Shown piece by piece: positions 49,503-60,185 of a stretch of 64,000 bases of DNA. Made by a program: the position numbers and the translations under genes. The stretch is from SAR86 cluster bacterium AG-422-O05 (GTDB lineage: Bacteria > Pseudomonadota > Gammaproteobacteria > Magnimaribacterales > D2472). Location of the stretch: positions 1 to 64,000 of the forward strand of contig QCMW01000001.1 in assembly GCA_003213495.1 (NCBI GenBank). The letters are read 5' to 3'. The first letter of the stretch is position 1. Each line of letters starts with the position of its first letter. The notes below the pieces were generated by a model. It was not told the origin of the DNA. It searched no databases and worked only from the letters and a program-made list of their open reading frames with translations.

Positions 49503-49991
49503 TTAATTAATTTCAACTCTTCTATTTTTTGAGTAACTTGTTTCGTCTTGACCAAATTCTACTGGACGCTCTTCACCGTAGCTTCGTACAGTTATTCTGT
49601 CTGGACTAATACCATTTAAAACAAAATAATCGCTTACAGCCTCTGCTCTTCTTTGACCTAAAGCTAAATTATATTCTCTAGTTCCTCTTTCATCTGCATG
49701 CCCTGACAATGTAATCATAATTGAAGAGTTTTCATTGAGCGCATTAACAGCACTCTTCAATGTCTGTATGGACTTGCTTGTTAAATTTGATTTATCAAAT
49801 TCAAAATAAACTGTAGCATTTGCAAAAACAGCCATACTGTCATAATTTACATTACTAGATTTTGTGGATGATGCTTTAACTGTTTTTACATCACCAGAGT
49901 ATACTTTTTCTTCTGTTACATTCATGCTTGAACAAGATGCAAGAAAAAAGACAACAACTATAAAATTTAATTTATTTTTTAAAAAAAACAT
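49503..49991 (-). CDS. pal: Peptidoglycan-associated lipoprotein Pal
   Basis: Lipobox LASCSS; VYFEFDKSNLTSKS; LSGHADERGTREYNLALGQRRAEAV. Confidence 0.97.
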   Translation of the reverse strand: MFFLKNKLNFIVVVFFLASCSSMNVTEEKVYSGDVKTVKASSTKSSNVNYDSMAVFANATVYFEFDKSNLTSKSIQTLKSAVNALNENSSIMITLSGHADERGTREYNLALGQRRAEAVSDYFVLNGISPDRITVRSYGEERPVEFGQDETSYSKNRRVEIN

Positions 49992-50007
49992 AACAACTCC
50001 ATTTAAA

Positions 50008-51264
50008 TTATCTTAAATAACCAGACCATGCAGGCTCTCGAACAGCTCCTTTTGATGCAGGAAGTCTAAACTTTGCACCACTTAAGGTCACGCCTGAGAG
50101 TAAACCCATACCATCATCCTTAATAGCATAAACTATAACATTTCCATTGGGAGAAATACTAGGTGATTCATCCATTTGAGCATTAGTTAGAGGTCTTACA
50201 AAGTTCTCATTAAAATATTTTAAAGCTATCTGAAAATTTGTATCTGCTCTATGAACAAAGACTATTCCCTCATTGTTTGGCAAATAAGACCCTTTTGCGT
50301 TGTAATTTCCATCAAATGTAATTCTTTTTGGCCTAGAATTAAATTTTTTTAAATCAAGTTCATATAATTGTGGTGATCCTGATCTACCGGAAGTAAACAT
50401 AATCTTTGATCCTTTTGGAGACCATGAAGATTCTGTATCAATAGAATAGTGATTAGTAAGCCTTGTTAAGTTTTTATTTTTTAAATTTAATATATATATC
50501 TCAGCATTACCATCTTGGTACATTGTCAATGACAAAAACTTTCCATCAGGAGACCATGCAGGTGAACTTATCTGTGATGAATTCTCAACAGCAACTTGTC
50601 TATTCCCTGAAGCAATATCTTGTATATAGACTTTTGCAATTCCTGTTTCAAATGAAACATATGCAACTTTTTTTGAATCTGGTGACCATGATGGTGAAAT
50701 TATTGGTTCAGTACTTTCTAAAAGTACTTGCTCATTACTTCCATCTGCATCAGAGATTAGTAATTTAAAATTAATATCTTCGGTTACATATAAAATTTTT
50801 GTAGAAGCGATGCCTGGTATGCCTGTAATCTCTTGATAGATGCCGTCACTTACGTAATGAGCTAGCTGTCTATTCTTATTAGGTATGCCATACACAGTTG
50901 AGGTTCTAATTTTTTTTGCTTTTGAAATATCAAATACTTGATATTCAACCGCAATATTTAACCCGTCATCCTCAACCTTTCCCATGATAAGAAAGTCTAT
51001 ATCCAATATTCTAAAATCATTAAATACTATATCCTCTTCAATTTGCGGGATTGACAACAAATCTTCATTATTAAAAATTGTAAACTCTCCTGTTCTTAGG
51101 AGATTATCAAAGACAACTTTTTGAATATCAGTTGTTGCTTTATCGCCTCCACTAAATTTAATTATGGCTACTCGGTAAGGGTCTTCTGTACCTTGTGTTA
51201 TTTCTAAAGTAAGTTCAGATATTGCATGAAATGATAAGAAATAAATAAGAAGAATTTTTTTCAT
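50008..51264 (-). CDS. tolB: Tol-Pal translocation protein TolB
   Basis: WSPDSKKVAYVSFETG, WSPDGKFLSLTMYQDGNAEIYILNL beta-propeller repeats. Confidence 0.97.
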   Translation of the reverse strand: MKKILLIYFLSFHAISELTLEITQGTEDPYRVAIIKFSGGDKATTDIQKVVFDNLLRTGEFTIFNNEDLLSIPQIEEDIVFNDFRILDIDFLIMGKVEDDGLNIAVEYQVFDISKAKKIRTSTVYGIPNKNRQLAHYVSDGIYQEITGIPGIASTKILYVTEDINFKLLISDADGSNEQVLLESTEPIISPSWSPDSKKVAYVSFETGIAKVYIQDIASGNRQVAVENSSQISSPAWSPDGKFLSLTMYQDGNAEIYILNLKNKNLTRLTNHYSIDTESSWSPKGSKIMFTSGRSGSPQLYELDLKKFNSRPKRITFDGNYNAKGSYLPNNEGIVFVHRADTNFQIALKYFNENFVRPLTNAQMDESPSISPNGNVIVYAIKDDGMGLLSGVTLSGAKFRLPASKGAVREPAWSGYLR

Positions 51265-51887
51265 GATGGGTTAAAAGTTATAACAATATTTTTAAAATTT
51301 GATGAGTAAATATTCAAAGGAATTTTATTAAAAAAATCAAATGCTTCTACTCTTTGGACTGCTTTTAATGCAGAGTTATCAAATCTTATATTACCACTGC
51401 TTTTTATTAGGTTTACATTAACCACTCTTCCATTTTTATTTATAGAAAGTCTTAAATTACAAACGAGGCCATCCTGAATATTGATAGGTTTTCGCCATGC
51501 AGACTGAATACTTTCTATAATAAGAGAGCTGTATAAATTAACTTGATTTTCTTCAGACTCCATCAAAAAAATATTGTCTTCTTCTATGAGTTCTTCAACA
51601 TTAGTTGATTTTATTAAAGAATCAAATGAAATACTTTTAGGTGTTATATTTTCAATATTGGTTGCTTTGATTTGAGGTGTTTCTTGTATTTTTTGATTTG
51701 AATCAGGCACTGATCTATTTTCGCGTGTGGGCTCCTCTTTGAAAATTAAATTTACACTGACAGGCTTACTTAAAACAGATTTATCTCTTATTTCAAAATA
51801 AAAAAAACCTAGTAAGTAAACAATAATTAATCCATGAAATACAAAGGAAATAAAAGAGGCTTCAAGATATGTTTTATTAATTTTCAT
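51261..51887 (-). CDS. tolA: Short TolA-like protein (TM anchor, short linker, TolA/TonB C-terminal domain)
   Basis: Position tolR-tolA-tolB; C-terminal AWRKPINIQDGLVCNLRLSINKNGRVVNVNLIKSSGNIRFDNSALKAVQRV. Confidence 0.88.
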   Translation of the reverse strand: MKINKTYLEASFISFVFHGLIIVYLLGFFYFEIRDKSVLSKPVSVNLIFKEEPTRENRSVPDSNQKIQETPQIKATNIENITPKSISFDSLIKSTNVEELIEEDNIFLMESEENQVNLYSSLIIESIQSAWRKPINIQDGLVCNLRLSINKNGRVVNVNLIKSSGNIRFDNSALKAVQRVEAFDFFNKIPLNIYSSNFKNIVITFNPS

Positions 51888-52299
51888 AACCAGAAGTTAC
51901 GATACCAATTTTAGAAATACCAACACTTTGCACAGATGCCATAGCTTTTGCTACAAAATCAAAAGATACATCTTTATCACTTTGAAAGACTACTTCAATC
52001 TCTGGATTTGCATCATAAATAACTTTTGATTTCCTTTTTAACTCATCGAGATCAATTGCTAAAGACTCCTCGCCTACATTGATAAAATAATTTCCACTTT
52101 CATCGATAGAAATCACTAGAGGCTCATTTTGGATACTCATTTTAGTCGTGTCTGTTTTTGGCAAATCTACTTCTATGCCTTGAATTAATAAAGGAGATAG
52201 GATCATAAAGATGATTAGTAATACCAGCATAACATCGATGTAAGGAACAACATTTATCTCTGCTTTTAGATTCTTCTTTTTTGCTAACCTATATATCAC
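51877..52299 (-). CDS. tolR: Tol-Pal protein TolR (ExbD family)
   Basis: AEINVVPYIDVMLVLLIIFMI. Confidence 0.97.
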   Translation of the reverse strand: MIYRLAKKKNLKAEINVVPYIDVMLVLLIIFMILSPLLIQGIEVDLPKTDTTKMSIQNEPLVISIDESGNYFINVGEESLAIDLDELKRKSKVIYDANPEIEVVFQSDKDVSFDFVAKAMASVQSVGISKIGIVTSGYEN

Positions 52300-52967
52300 T
52301 GTTTCTTAAATGTTTTTTTATAAAAAATACTTGCCATCTCTTCTGCAAAAATTAATGTATTTTGACTAATGGTTTCTGACTCTGCTGTAAATTTATTAAA
52401 TGCTACAACTGCAGGTATTGCTGCAAATAATCCCATCCCAGTAGCAATCAATGCCTCTGATATTCCTGGTGCAACTGCATTGATAGTAGCTTGAGTTGCG
52501 TCAGATAGCCCCTGAAATGATGTCATAATTCCCCATACAGTTCCTAACAAACCTACATACGGACTAACTGAACCAACATTAGCCAAAAAAGGAAGATGTT
52601 TATTCATTTCCTCTTCATCAGATGCTATGGAAACTCTCATTGATCTATTGATTGACTCTAAATCTACTTCAACAATTTCAGCTTGAGATTCAATTTGATG
52701 AAATTCGTCAAATGAATTTTTAAATAGACTCATAGAGCCATAAAGAACTTCTTTATCTTGTATTTCTTTATGTAAAATACTTAAGTCCTTTCCGCTCCAA
52801 AATTTTTTAAGAAAAGTATTATTTTCATTTTTTACTTTTCTAAAAAATTTATACCTTTCTACAATAACTATCCATGACAAAATTGACGCCACAAATAACA
52901 AGATCATTACAACTTTAACTACAATTCCTGCTTGTAAAAATAAATTTAAGACTGAAATCTCTTCCAT
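52296..52967 (-). CDS. tolQ: Tol-Pal protein TolQ (ExbB/MotA family)
   Basis: LPFLANVGSVSPYVGLLGTVWGIMTSFQGLSDATQATINAVAPGISEALIATGMGLFAAIPAVVAFN. Confidence 0.97.
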   Translation of the reverse strand: MEEISVLNLFLQAGIVVKVVMILLFVASILSWIVIVERYKFFRKVKNENNTFLKKFWSGKDLSILHKEIQDKEVLYGSMSLFKNSFDEFHQIESQAEIVEVDLESINRSMRVSIASDEEEMNKHLPFLANVGSVSPYVGLLGTVWGIMTSFQGLSDATQATINAVAPGISEALIATGMGLFAAIPAVVAFNKFTAESETISQNTLIFAEEMASIFYKKTFKKQ

Positions 52968-52976
52968 AAACTTTTC

Positions 52977-53387
52977 CTATTTAAAAATTAATAATAAATC
53001 ATCTGGAAACTTTTTTGGTTTTTTTGTGTTTAAATCTATAAAACACACTTCAACTTTTCCATTAACATATTCTCTTTTATTATCTTCGCATCTTATATTT
53101 TGATGAAAAATCATTCTTGCATTTGATTTCTTCTCAACAGCGGTATGGACAACTAAATTATCTCCAAGCTCAGCTGCATATAGGTAATTTAAATTAATGC
53201 TTTTGATTACAAATGCTTGATTTTTAGTTCTTAATTCACGTTGAGAAACTTTAATAGTAGATAAAAAATTTGATCTCGCTCTTTCAAAAAATTTCACGTA
53301 ATTTGCGTGATAAACAAATCCTTGGAAATCTGTATCCTCAACATATATAGTGATTTGTAATTCTTCAGATTTGATAATTTTGTTCAT
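52977..53387 (-). CDS. ybgC: Acyl-CoA thioesterase YbgC (hotdog fold)
   Basis: VYVED-like YVEDTDFQGFVYHANYVKFFERARSNFL motif; upstream of tolQ. Confidence 0.95.
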   Translation of the reverse strand: MNKIIKSEELQITIYVEDTDFQGFVYHANYVKFFERARSNFLSTIKVSQRELRTKNQAFVIKSINLNYLYAAELGDNLVVHTAVEKKSNARMIFHQNIRCEDNKREYVNGKVEVCFIDLNTKKPKKFPDDLLLIFK

Positions 53388-53790
53388 GCAATTCAATATC
53401 GTTTTGAAAAAGCTCAAGTATTATTTCTATAAAATCCGGCCACAACAAGTCTACTGTTACTAAATCATTTTTAATTTTAGTGTTTAAACATTTAGCAAGT
53501 ATTCTCACTTTTATTGGTCTATTATTAAATTTATATACAAGAGCTGGCTTTAACCCCTCTGCATCAGATGAGGCTAGAACTTGTTCCCACCAATCGGGTC
53601 TTGGTTCAGCGCCAGAACCATAAGCTTTGCATTCAATACACCAAGTTCCTAGCATTAGGTCTGGAAGTTCTTTTGTTCTTGTTTGTTCAAGTATTCTTTT
53701 TACAGGGTTAGTTAGATTTAAATCGTTAATTAGAGCATTAGCTATCTGTCTTTCAAATGCTGCTCCTTTATTTCTTGAATTAATAGACAA
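53365..53790 (-). CDS. Putative PD-(D/E)XK nuclease, Holliday-junction-resolvase/phage Hjr-like
   Basis: SRNKGAAFERQIANAL ... LPDLMLGTWCIECKAYGSG: E...PD...ExK nuclease signature; located between yebC and ybgC. Confidence 0.75.
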   Translation of the reverse strand: MSINSRNKGAAFERQIANALINDLNLTNPVKRILEQTRTKELPDLMLGTWCIECKAYGSGAEPRPDWWEQVLASSDAEGLKPALVYKFNNRPIKVRILAKCLNTKIKNDLVTVDLLWPDFIEIILELFQNDIELHEQNYQI

Positions 53791-53793
53791 GAT

Positions 53794-54531
53794 TTATTCC
53801 TTTACTTCAAAATTTTCTGGAAATTCTGCGTTGGTATGAACTTCTTGAACATCATCTAAATCATCCATATATTCCATAATATTTAATACTTTCTCAGACA
53901 TATCATTATCAAGAGGAACAAGAGTATCTGCTCTTAAAGTTAATTGTGCATCAATATATTCAATTTTTTTTTCTTTAAAAACATCCAATACATTGCTAAA
54001 TACATTTGCTTCAGTTGTTACTTCATAAAAATCATCTTCTGTTGAAAAATCTTCTGCTCCTGATTCAATGACAACCTCGATCAAGTTTTCTTCTGATAAA
54101 TTTTTAGAAAGATGAATAATTCCAAGCTTTTTAAATAAATAGGAGACAGAGCCATCGGTGCCCAAATTACCACCATATTTTGAAAAGGCATGTCTCACAT
54201 CAGATACAGTTCTGTTACGATTATCTGTCATTGTTTCTACTAATATTGCTACTCCGCCTGGACCGTAACCTTCAAAAACTATCTCTTCTAATTCTCCTGT
54301 TTCACCAGTTCCAGAACCCTTCTCAATAGCTCTTTTTATGGTATCTTTTGGCATATTGGCAGCATTAGCCTTTTCAAGAGCTAATCTTAATCTAGGATTA
54401 TCATTAGGATCAGGCCCATCTTTTGCTGCAACTGTTATCTCACGAATAACTTTCGTCCAAACTTTACCGCGAGAGGCGTCTTGCCTTGCTTTTCGATGTT
54501 TTATGTTTGCCCACTTTGAATGACCTGCCAT
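53794..54531 (-). CDS. yebC: YebC/PmpR/TACO1 family protein
   Basis: MAGHSKWANIKHRKARQDASRGKVWTKVIREI. Confidence 0.98.
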   Translation of the reverse strand: MAGHSKWANIKHRKARQDASRGKVWTKVIREITVAAKDGPDPNDNPRLRLALEKANAANMPKDTIKRAIEKGSGTGETGELEEIVFEGYGPGGVAILVETMTDNRNRTVSDVRHAFSKYGGNLGTDGSVSYLFKKLGIIHLSKNLSEENLIEVVIESGAEDFSTEDDFYEVTTEANVFSNVLDVFKEKKIEYIDAQLTLRADTLVPLDNDMSEKVLNIMEYMDDLDDVQEVHTNAEFPENFEVKE

Positions 54532-54534
54532 AAA

Positions 54535-56301
54535 TTATTCTTCCTTGAAGGTACTTATAATTTTTAGTTCATCAAGCTGATCTTTTTCAACCTTACTTGG
54601 TGCATCTGTTAGCAAACAAGCAGCACTCTGTGTTTTAGGGAAAGCAATAACATCTCTTATGTTGGTCGTATCAGTAACTAGCATTACTATTCTATCAAGA
54701 CCAAATGCTATTCCTCCATGAGGTGGACAACCAGATGAAAGAGCTTTTAATAAGAAACCAAATTTACTTTCTGCGTCTTCTTTTGAAATATTAAGAATAT
54801 TAAAAATAATTTTTTGCATTGCATTTTCATAAATTCTTAAAGAACCACCTCCTATTTCATAGCCATTTAAAACAACATCATATGCATGAGCAATTGAATC
54901 CTTGGGATTATCCTCCAATTCTTTAGCTGAACATTTTGGAAGCGTAAATGGATGATGAAGTGGTGTTAAATTACCCTCTTTACTGGTTTCAAACATTGGA
55001 AAATCTACAATCCAACAAGGCGCCCATTTAGTTAAATATAAATCTAAGTCTTCTCCTAATTTTTTAATTAAACTACTCATAGACAAATTTACAACTGACT
55101 CACTCCCGGCACCAAAGAAAATTAAATCATCAGTTTTTGTATCTAGAGACTTGATAATGTTTGTTACCGTTTCTGGTTTTAAGAATTTTAGTATTGGTGA
55201 TTGAATACCGTTCTCTAAATCGTTTACATCATTTATCTTTATGTAAGCCAAACCTTTTGCACCAAGCTTAGATACAAATTTTGTAAAGTCATCGATTTGT
55301 CCTCGGGATAATAAATTACCTTTTGGTACTTTTAAAGCGACTACTCTTGATTCTTTTTTTTGTGCAGGTTCAGAAAAAACTTTAAATTCCTCATCTTTGA
55401 CTAATTCAGATATATCAACGAGTTTAAGTGGTATTCTTAAATCAGGTTTATCGCATCCATAATCTCGCATAGCATCATGCCAATTAATTATTTCAAATTT
55501 TTCTAGCTTATCTCCACAGAATTCCTTGATAATATCTTTAATCATCTTTTCGCTTATCTTCATAATTTCATCTTGATCAATGAATGACGCCTCAATATCT
55601 ATTTGAGTGAACTCTGGTTGTCTATCAGCTCTTAAATCTTCATCCCTAAAACATCTAGCTATCTGATAATATTTATCTAGACCACCTATCATTAATAGCT
55701 GCTTAAAAAGTTGAGGTGACTGAGGCAAAGCATAGAAACTTCCTGGTTGAACTCTGCTGGGTAAAATATAATCTCTAGCTCCCTCTGGAGTAGCTTTAGT
55801 TAATATAGGTGTTTCAATCTCATGAAAATCATTTTTATCTAAATAATTTCTTATTAAAGAAGTAATTTTCGACCTAGTTATTATTCTTTCATTCATTTCA
55901 GGTCTTCTTAGATCTAAAACTCTATTTTTTAACCTAACATCTTCATTTACTTCTTGATACTCATCAATTGGAAAGACAGGTGTATTTGCTTTACTGAGAA
56001 TAATTAAGTCTTTAACCTCAATTTCTATCTCTCCCGTATGCATATTTTTATTTATTGTTCCTTCTAACCTTTTTCTTACAATACCTTTAATCTTAACAAC
56101 GTATTCATTTCTAATTGACTCAGCTAATTTAAAAGACTTTTCATTGTCAGGATTGACTACAGCTTGGCAAATACCTTTTATATCTCTTACATCAAGAAAA
56201 ATTACACCGCCATGATCTCTTCTTCTATGAATCCAGCCACAGATTGTTACCTCTTCTTTAAGATTTGAGGATGTTATTTCACCGCAATAATGAGACTTCA
56301 T
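54535..56301 (-). CDS. aspS: Aspartyl-tRNA synthetase
   Basis: VTICGWIHRRRDHGGVIFLDVRDIKG; QSPQLFKQLLMIGGLDKYYQIARCFRDED; GIAFGLDRIVML. Confidence 0.98.
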   Translation of the reverse strand: MKSHYCGEITSSNLKEEVTICGWIHRRRDHGGVIFLDVRDIKGICQAVVNPDNEKSFKLAESIRNEYVVKIKGIVRKRLEGTINKNMHTGEIEIEVKDLIILSKANTPVFPIDEYQEVNEDVRLKNRVLDLRRPEMNERIITRSKITSLIRNYLDKNDFHEIETPILTKATPEGARDYILPSRVQPGSFYALPQSPQLFKQLLMIGGLDKYYQIARCFRDEDLRADRQPEFTQIDIEASFIDQDEIMKISEKMIKDIIKEFCGDKLEKFEIINWHDAMRDYGCDKPDLRIPLKLVDISELVKDEEFKVFSEPAQKKESRVVALKVPKGNLLSRGQIDDFTKFVSKLGAKGLAYIKINDVNDLENGIQSPILKFLKPETVTNIIKSLDTKTDDLIFFGAGSESVVNLSMSSLIKKLGEDLDLYLTKWAPCWIVDFPMFETSKEGNLTPLHHPFTLPKCSAKELEDNPKDSIAHAYDVVLNGYEIGGGSLRIYENAMQKIIFNILNISKEDAESKFGFLLKALSSGCPPHGGIAFGLDRIVMLVTDTTNIRDVIAFPKTQSAACLLTDAPSKVEKDQLDELKIISTFKEE

Positions 56302-56636: not shown

Positions 56637-57917
56637 ATGTTATTTTCAAAGCTACTAATACCTACTTTAAAAGATGCCCCGCAAGAAGCTGAAGTTATCA
56701 GTCACAAATTAATGCTTCGAGCAGGAATGATTCGAAAAGTGGCATCTGGGATATACACATGGCTACCTTTAGGTTTAAAAGTTCTCAAAAGAATAGAGAA
56801 TATCGTTCGAGAGGAAATGGATTCATCTGGGGCACAAGAAGTTTTCATGCCAATGGTTCAACCAAAAGAATTATGGGATGAAACAAAAAGGTGGGAAAAA
56901 ATGGGTCCAGAACTTTTAAGAATTAAAGATAGGCATGAGAGAGATTTTTGTCTGGGCCCTACTCACGAAGAAGTTATAACAGACATAATTAGAGATAATG
57001 TAAAAAGTTATAAAGAACTTCCACTTAATATTTATCAAATTCAAACTAAGTTTAGAGATGAAGTTAGACCTAGATATGGAATTATGAGGGGAAGAGAATT
57101 TCTGATGAAAGATTCATATAGCTTCAATATTGATGAAGAATCTCTTCAAGAAACTTACCTACTAATGAGGGACACCTATAAAAAAGTACTAGAAAGAATT
57201 GGACTTGAATATAAAATTTCTGCTGCTGATTCTGGAGCAATTGGTGGAGACAGTTCTGAAGAATTTCATGTCTTGGCTGAAAATGGAGAAGATACTATTG
57301 CTGTCAGTGACTCATCTGAATTTGCAATAAATACAGAACTACTCTTGAAAGAAGGTGAAGATATAAATTCACTTGAAGGAAAACCTTCCCCAGACGGAAA
57401 TGGAACAATACAAATTAAGAAAGGTATTGAGGTTGGTCATATTTTCAAACTTGGTAAGCTTTACGCCGAATCAATGAAAGCTAATGTTTTAAATGCTGAA
57501 GGTAAAGCTTCAACATTGTATATGGGTTGTTATGGTATCGGTGTATCGAGACTAGTGGCAGCAGCTATAGAACAAAATTTTGATGACAGAGGAATTATTT
57601 GGCCTCATAGTATAGCTCCGTTTGGCATTAATATTATCGCGATCGGTTTTGATAAAAATAAAGAAATTGCGTCGGCATCAATAAAATTATATGAAGAATT
57701 AACTGACATGGGTTATGACGTTCTTCTTGATGATAGAAAGGACGGTTATGGTGCAAAAATGAAGGATTCTGAACTCATAGGTATTCCTTTAAACATAATA
57801 ATTGGCAAGTCATTCCTTGAAAATCAAGAAGTTGAGCTAAGGGGAAGGAATGGTCAGAGCTCATCTAATCCAGTTTCAGATATAAAAACAATAATGGATT
57901 TTTTTAAAAATAAATAA
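56637..57917 (+). CDS. proS: Prolyl-tRNA synthetase lacking the INS editing domain
   Basis: SKLLIPTLKDAPQEAEVISHKLMLRAGMIRKVASGIYTWLPLG; RHERDFCLGPTHEEVIT; only 426 aa. Confidence 0.96.
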   Translation: MLFSKLLIPTLKDAPQEAEVISHKLMLRAGMIRKVASGIYTWLPLGLKVLKRIENIVREEMDSSGAQEVFMPMVQPKELWDETKRWEKMGPELLRIKDRHERDFCLGPTHEEVITDIIRDNVKSYKELPLNIYQIQTKFRDEVRPRYGIMRGREFLMKDSYSFNIDEESLQETYLLMRDTYKKVLERIGLEYKISAADSGAIGGDSSEEFHVLAENGEDTIAVSDSSEFAINTELLLKEGEDINSLEGKPSPDGNGTIQIKKGIEVGHIFKLGKLYAESMKANVLNAEGKASTLYMGCYGIGVSRLVAAAIEQNFDDRGIIWPHSIAPFGINIIAIGFDKNKEIASASIKLYEELTDMGYDVLLDDRKDGYGAKMKDSELIGIPLNIIIGKSFLENQEVELRGRNGQSSSNPVSDIKTIMDFFKNK

Positions 57918-59156: not shown

Positions 59157-60185
59157 TTATTTTGATTTACTTGAAATGTAAGATGATCTTATTTCTTTAA
59201 CAAGTTTATCTCTAATTTTAGTATTCTCTTTTAAGAAAGTGCTTGCTTTGACTTTTCCTTGACCAATACTCTCGCCATCAAGTTTGTAAAATGCACCGGA
59301 TTTATCAACCAAGCCCAACTTGTTACCGTAATCTAAAATTTCGCCTTCTTGGTTGATGCCTTGACCATACATAATTTGGAATTCAGCCTGTTTGAAAGGA
59401 GGTGATACTTTATTTTTAACAACTTTGACTCTGGTTTCATTACCCATCACTTCGTCACCTTCTTTTACAGAACCTATCCTTCTGATATCTAATCTTACGG
59501 ATGAATAGAATTTCAGGGCATTACCACCAGTGGTTGTTTCTGGACTTCCAAACATAACACCGATTTTCATTCTAATTTGATTAATGAAAACAACCGTTGC
59601 TCCTGATCTTTGAATGTTACCAGTTATTTTTCTTAATGCCTGAGACATTAAGCGAGCTTGTAAACCAACATGATGGTCTCCCATTTCTCCTTCAATCTCT
59701 GCTCTTGGAACTAATGCTGCTACAGAGTCTATTATCACCAAATCAACATTTTTTGATTTCACCAACATATCTGCAACTTCAAGTGCTTGTTCTCCAGTAT
59801 TTGGTTGAGACAAAATAAGTTCATCAATATTTACACCAAGCTTCTCTGCATATTGAGGATCAAGAGCATGCTCAGCATCAATAAATGCACACACACCACC
59901 TTCTTTTTGACATTGAGCAATTATCTGAAGCGTTAACGTTGTCTTTCCAGATGATTCTGGTCCATATATTTCTGTGACTCTCCCTTTTGGAATTCCACCA
60001 ATGCCAAGTGCAATATCGAGACCCAATGAACCTGTCGAAATAGAAGGAATATCTAATTTTTCTTGATCGCCCATTCTCATTACGGTTGAACCACCACCAG
60101 ACTCTTTTTCAAAATGTAAATTTATATCTTTTAAAGTGTCTTTAAGTGATTTACTGGAAATTTCTTTAGATTTTGATTTAGGCAT
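59157..60185 (-). CDS. recA: Recombinase RecA
   Basis: [60 protein letters not shown]. Confidence 0.99.

Follow-up and report, generated by a model that had tools for sequence, protein, structure and literature searches.

Few components of bacterial recombination are as conserved as RuvABC, and the locus described here raises the question of what serves in its place when a single small gene stands where ruvC, ruvA and ruvB would be expected. The window, that is, the whole stretch of 64,000 nucleotides analysed, comes from a SAR86 marine gammaproteobacterium with a genome of 1.28 Mb (96.7% complete). Its gene order is proS-fmdB-aspS-yebC-nuclease-ybgC-tolQRAB-pal, with recA close by, and the nuclease is encoded by a 141-aa ORF on the minus strand (53365-53790), with a TTG start at 53790 and a TGA stop at 53365. 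The first-pass annotation had placed this ORF between yebC and ybgC, 3 nt after the former and overlapping the latter, and had named the motifs KGAAFERQ, LPDLMLG and CIECKAY in its product; the coordinates were confirmed and all three motifs were present. We describe it as an Hjc-like PD-(D/E)XK nuclease gene and a predicted Holliday junction resolvase, on the basis of the ORF, a match to PF24608, Foldseek and hhalign comparisons with Hjc, and order-wide orthologues.

The upstream neighbour yebC (53794-54531, minus strand; NF001030, 338 bits) also stands beside ruvC in most genomes of the class, and its stop codon is separated from the TTG start of the nuclease gene by 3 nt. This TTG start is supported by the orthologues, which carry ATG at the same codon. 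The downstream neighbour ybgC (52977-53417, minus strand) scored above the cut-off of TIGR00051 and reached 126 bits with TIGR02799, below the cut-off of that model. It overlaps the nuclease gene by 23 nt when started at the ATG at 53387, which is the likely start, or by 53 nt when started at the TTG at 53417. On the same strand, ORFs assigned by synteny to a conserved block were aspS (54535-56301) and, downstream of ybgC, tolQ, tolR, tolA, tolB and pal (49503-52967). The recA ORF (59157-60185, minus strand) lies near the nuclease locus in order-wide loci as well, and recA is retained in SAR86, so the strand-exchange step is kept. The GC3 of the nuclease gene was 0.19 versus 0.18-0.22 in its neighbours; since its composition matches theirs, the gene is not a recent arrival. 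As a side observation, ProS (56637-57917) has only 426 aa, which we take to be much shorter than the usual gammaproteobacterial enzyme, and it may lack the editing insertion.

The position of the gene was compared with RuvC loci of the class. RuvC was found in 343 of 369 sampled Gammaproteobacteria genomes, yebC was near ruvC in 25 of 30 class RuvC loci, and ybgC or tolQ followed about 2 kb downstream of ruvC in 15 of the 20 larger class loci. In one locus that was fully read (L268), ruvC was followed directly by ORFs that match ruvA and ruvB in size and sequence. In SAR86, 49 loci from four families of the order were checked, and the nuclease gene adjoined yebC in every one; named genome contigs, a second set that overlaps the first, showed the same adjacency. 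Since class loci run from yebC to ruvC and then, about 2 kb on, to ybgC or tolQ, the SAR86 nuclease fills the exact ruvCAB slot, as had been proposed from the window. In three loci of family f4 (L050-L052), no ybgC lay between the nuclease gene and tolQ, and the nuclease gene was kept. RuvC was also not found in other nearly complete gammaproteobacterial genomes, for example G137 and G383 of family f42.

The first-pass annotation had further claimed that ruvC, ruvA and ruvB are missing, and had named an intact ruvABC elsewhere in the genome as one result that would overturn its reading. No ruvA, ruvB or ruvC was found anywhere in the 1.28 Mb source genome, including beyond the window, and the claim held in 100 relatives too. 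Among these 100 SAR86-order genomes, RuvC (PF02075) was detected in none, RuvA in none above its cut-off and RuvB in none above its 299-bit cut-off (best 37 bits), while E. coli and the other expected controls were found in each search. The RuvB-like matches of up to 37 bits were long AAA+ ORFs (about 420 to 800 aa, ClpX size or larger) and were rejected on length and score. The nuclease was present, and RuvA, RuvB and RuvC were all absent, in six single-contig genomes that represent four families (G034, G039, G061, G063, G065 and G068).

The nuclease gene is a core gene of the SAR86 order. It was present in 91 of 100 related genomes and in all 20 genera; of the 40 genomes with a completeness of at least 90%, 38 had it. 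The closest copies in named genomes were from SAR86 cluster bacteria (best 98% protein identity; SAR86A 87%). Within the genus, protein identity was 87% for the nuclease, 84% for yebC and 84% for aspS; order-wide, the values were 56% for the nuclease, 55% for yebC, 56% for aspS and 56% for proS, and the nuclease was better conserved than ybgC and tolQRAB. Because orthologues occur in 91 of 100 relatives and are conserved to the same degree as yebC, aspS and proS, the 141-aa ORF is not a chance reading frame. Judged from these sequence identities, its conservation pattern is that expected of a housekeeping gene under purifying selection.

By profile score, the nuclease belongs to PF24608 (PDDEXK_15, phage putative PDDEXK endonuclease) and not to RusA or RuvC: it scored 37.4 bits against a curated cut-off of 27, all 25 members of the nuclease family alignment matched the model, and phrog_244 matched at 5e-13. 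No match was obtained to PF05866 (RusA), to PF02075 (RuvC) or, even at an E value of 10, to the Pfam Hjc model. RecU, VRR-NUC and T7 endonuclease I gave no Pfam match and were not identifiable among the 50 best PDB Foldseek hits. Ribosomal protein L25 and Bud20 gave weak profile matches, which were regarded as chance. The phrog_244 family is labelled RusA-like, yet its SAR86 members have no RusA match and show an Hjc-like PD-(D/E)XK fold, so the label looks misleading for the SAR86 branch; the name was not counted as evidence, as no RusA signal was present in the nuclease.

Sequence searches of the PDB gave no significant match, and hence no solved close homologue by sequence; the Hjc assignment therefore rests on the fold and on profile-profile comparison. 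AlphaFold models of the nuclease were confident (pLDDT 86.6 and 89.3), and among solved structures in the PDB the fold was most similar to archaeal Hjc, which occupied Foldseek ranks 1-11 with the first model and ranks 1-16 with the second (for the second, probability 0.93-1.00, best E value 3.7e-4 and TM-score about 0.5). In hhalign, 58 nuclease family sequences aligned with four solved Hjc sequences at a probability of 95.7 and an E value of 9e-9, against at most 2.2 for the controls, namely reversed alignments and the families of eight neighbouring genes. Several annotated Holliday junction resolvases were also among the matches of a structural search against viral proteins. The phage or archaeal type assigned to this protein in the first-pass annotation is thus borne out by PF24608, by its phage relatives and by the alignment to Hjc; where a restriction or repair nuclease would have spoken against it, Hjc-type Holliday junction resolvases came first.

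In the numbering of the P. furiosus Hjc sequence, which is a full-length match to PDB 1gef, hhalign paired nuclease residues G9, E13, R14, R32, D44, E53, K55 and K87 with Hjc G5, E9, R10, R25, D33, E46, K48 and K81. All four catalytic residues of Hjc (E9, D33, E46 and K48) were therefore aligned, with E13, D44, E53 and K55, which were invariant in 133 of 133 SAR86 copies and 83 of 83 viral copies and are the candidate active-site residues. The SAR86 site reads E-PD-ECK. The other paired Hjc residues, G5, R10, R25 and K81, are invariant in the four Hjc compared, and their counterparts G9, R14, R32 and K87 are invariant in SAR86. The calculated pI was 5.5 for the whole nuclease versus 9.3 for residues 1-100; the whole-protein value is lower than usual for a junction binder and counts against a resolvase. 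The PD-(D/E)XK catalytic motif is common to many proteins that are not resolvases.

Other enzymes that process junctions were then considered, including RusA and RecG, for which a search had been proposed along with the original reading. RusA was found in none of the 60 SAR86 genomes searched, and YraN was undetected in the source genome. Families f2-f4 and, within the source family, genera g3, g7, g8, g9 and g10 had full-length RecG; in g1 (the genus of the source genome), g2, g4, g5 and g6, only Mfd-size and PriA-like matches were seen. The RecG-like match in the source genome (347 bits) is a 1101-aa ORF and was read as Mfd from its length and the partial match. RecG may drive branch migration in those SAR86 genera that keep it, and since the nuclease gene persists with or without RecG, the nuclease is independent of it.

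The source genome also encodes a complete YqgF (RuvX) of 134 aa, and YqgF or prophage resolvases have been named as possible stand-ins in the few genomes without both RuvC and RecU (Rocha et al. 2005, PMC1193525). YqgF could accordingly be the SAR86 resolvase, and the PD-(D/E)XK protein a different repair nuclease. We consider this improbable and YqgF a weak rival: in the majority of genomes YqgF occurs together with RuvC or RecU, of which it is no simple analogue (PMC1193525), and the Deinococcus protein is an RNase without resolvase activity (PMC9601230). Moreover, YqgF lies outside the ruv slot, and assigning resolution to it leaves an order-wide Hjc-like gene in that slot unexplained.

The nuclease might instead serve other branched or damaged DNA, such as flaps, mismatches or stalled forks, with RuvABC lost by streamlining and not replaced. 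In favour of this, SAR86 has small genomes (0.7-1.8 Mb), many nuclease families have the same catalytic motif, and the loss of RecG in some genera makes a loss of junction processing conceivable. Against this, it is specifically Hjc that gives the best matches by structure and by profile, and these include the non-catalytic R14, R32 and K87, the gene occupies the exact RuvCAB slot, and recA is retained; we therefore regard this explanation as unlikely.

The distribution of relatives bears on the origin of the gene. Cellular relatives outside SAR86 were nearly absent, being found in 3 of 365 other genomes of the class, one of them inside phage-like genes. In viral collections, an alignment-based scan recovered hundreds of relatives, whereas a single-protein scan of viral contigs found none. 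The relatives in Roseobacter phages and in one SAR86 prophage stood beside a PD-(D/E)XK exonuclease, an ssDNA-binding protein and a primase/helicase, and in a tally of neighbour families on viral contigs the most frequent were primase/helicase, DnaB-like helicase and polymerase/primase. The two phage groups closest in sequence carried their relative in the late or structural region, outside a recombination module. The SAR86 prophage copy (L053:6001-6420, genome G044) is the second in its genome and distant (36%); it belongs to a recombination module, and this genome holds both the cellular and the phage version. A phosphoadenosine phosphosulfate reductase-like gene recurred near phage copies (L229, L230 and other viral neighbours).

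In the tree, one strongly supported clade (100/99) took in all SAR86 copies, with three marine viral sequences nested among them, and the nearest neighbours of this clade were other viral sequences. The tree, with no root inferred, comprised 140 columns, too few to show which way the gene passed between SAR86 and the three nested viral sequences. These three copies (L141:5995-6408, L142:5989-6402 and L145:5995-6402) stand beside lysis and structural genes, and their carriers are possibly SAR86 phages that exchanged the nuclease gene with their host. A phage source, fixation before the SAR86 radiation and later exchange with phages fits the sequence comparisons best, the direction being one that we infer. 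That SAR86 keeps a captured phage gene for a phage-related purpose, such as defence or interference with infecting phages, unrelated to host recombination, could draw on the close phage relatives and the nested viral sequences, and is very unlikely, as the gene is vertically conserved order-wide at one housekeeping locus at the rate of aspS and proS, defence genes are usually patchy, and PADLOC gave no match.

Taken together, the nuclease is probably a phage-derived Hjc-type Holliday junction resolvase that took the place of ruvCAB between yebC and ybgC and became fixed in the ancestor of SAR86. It would have replaced RuvC and apparently the whole RuvABC system; the non-orthologous replacement first suggested from the window is supported at that strength, with no intact ruvABC found in the source genome or its 100 relatives and no restriction or repair nuclease ahead of Hjc in the structural search. 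Junction cleavage and dimerisation are predicted by analogy with Hjc. RecA would make the joint molecule with its four-way junction, and the nuclease would act on it as a homodimer. With E13, D44, E53 and K55, each subunit would bind Mg2+ and cleave one strand of an opposing pair in the junction; the two nicked duplexes that result would be sealed by ligase. A broader proposal, which we put forward tentatively and at somewhat less than even confidence, is that this one phage-derived Hjc-type nuclease took over all the work of RuvABC order-wide at the original ruv locus and that, in genera also without RecG, RecA and the resolvase may complete homologous recombination without a recognised branch-migration motor.

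Compared with known systems, the nuclease shares with archaeal Hjc (P. furiosus 1gef, A. fulgidus 2wcw/2wiw and Sulfolobus), its top structural matches, the size, the PD-(D/E)XK fold, the KG..ER start, the E-PD-ECK active site and the equivalents of R10, R25 and K81. It differs in being bacterial, in its identity of about 20% and lack of a Pfam Hjc match, in having 31 residues between the first two acidic residues where Hjc has 24, and in the longer helical C-terminus of its model. Hjc_15-6 of Thermus phage Tth15-6, an archaeal-type enzyme with an E-x-D-ExK site, cuts Holliday junctions in vitro, and E-PD-EVK is given as a motif of such archaeal-type enzymes (PMC8805305). Like the nuclease family it is phage-borne and of archaeal type with this site; unlike the SAR86 nuclease it is a thermophilic phage enzyme and not a fixed cellular gene, and it was outside the top 50 Foldseek hits. 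The PF24608 and phrog_244 phage nucleases are of the same family by profile score, but are phage genes of putative activity. RecU, too, has a PD-(D/E)XK fold. It replaces RuvC in Firmicutes and Mollicutes, also a non-orthologous replacement; there only the nuclease is exchanged, RuvAB stays, and recU is rarely near ruvAB (PMC1193525, PMC3403352). In SAR86, by contrast, RuvA and RuvB are gone as well, and it is the ruv slot that the new gene occupies.

What is new here is that a free-living order lacks all three ruv genes and has, fixed in their slot, a single gene of phage/archaeal type; in the openly searchable literature, as distinct from subscription papers, no link between SAR86 and RuvC or Holliday junctions was found. 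The bacteria concerned are very abundant in the ocean, and RuvABC is missing from their entire order. If the proposed role is confirmed, the RuvAB motor would be dispensable in free-living bacteria, the nuclease would be a clear case of a phage gene turned core cellular gene, and the large phage nuclease family PF24608/phrog_244 would gain a likely function.
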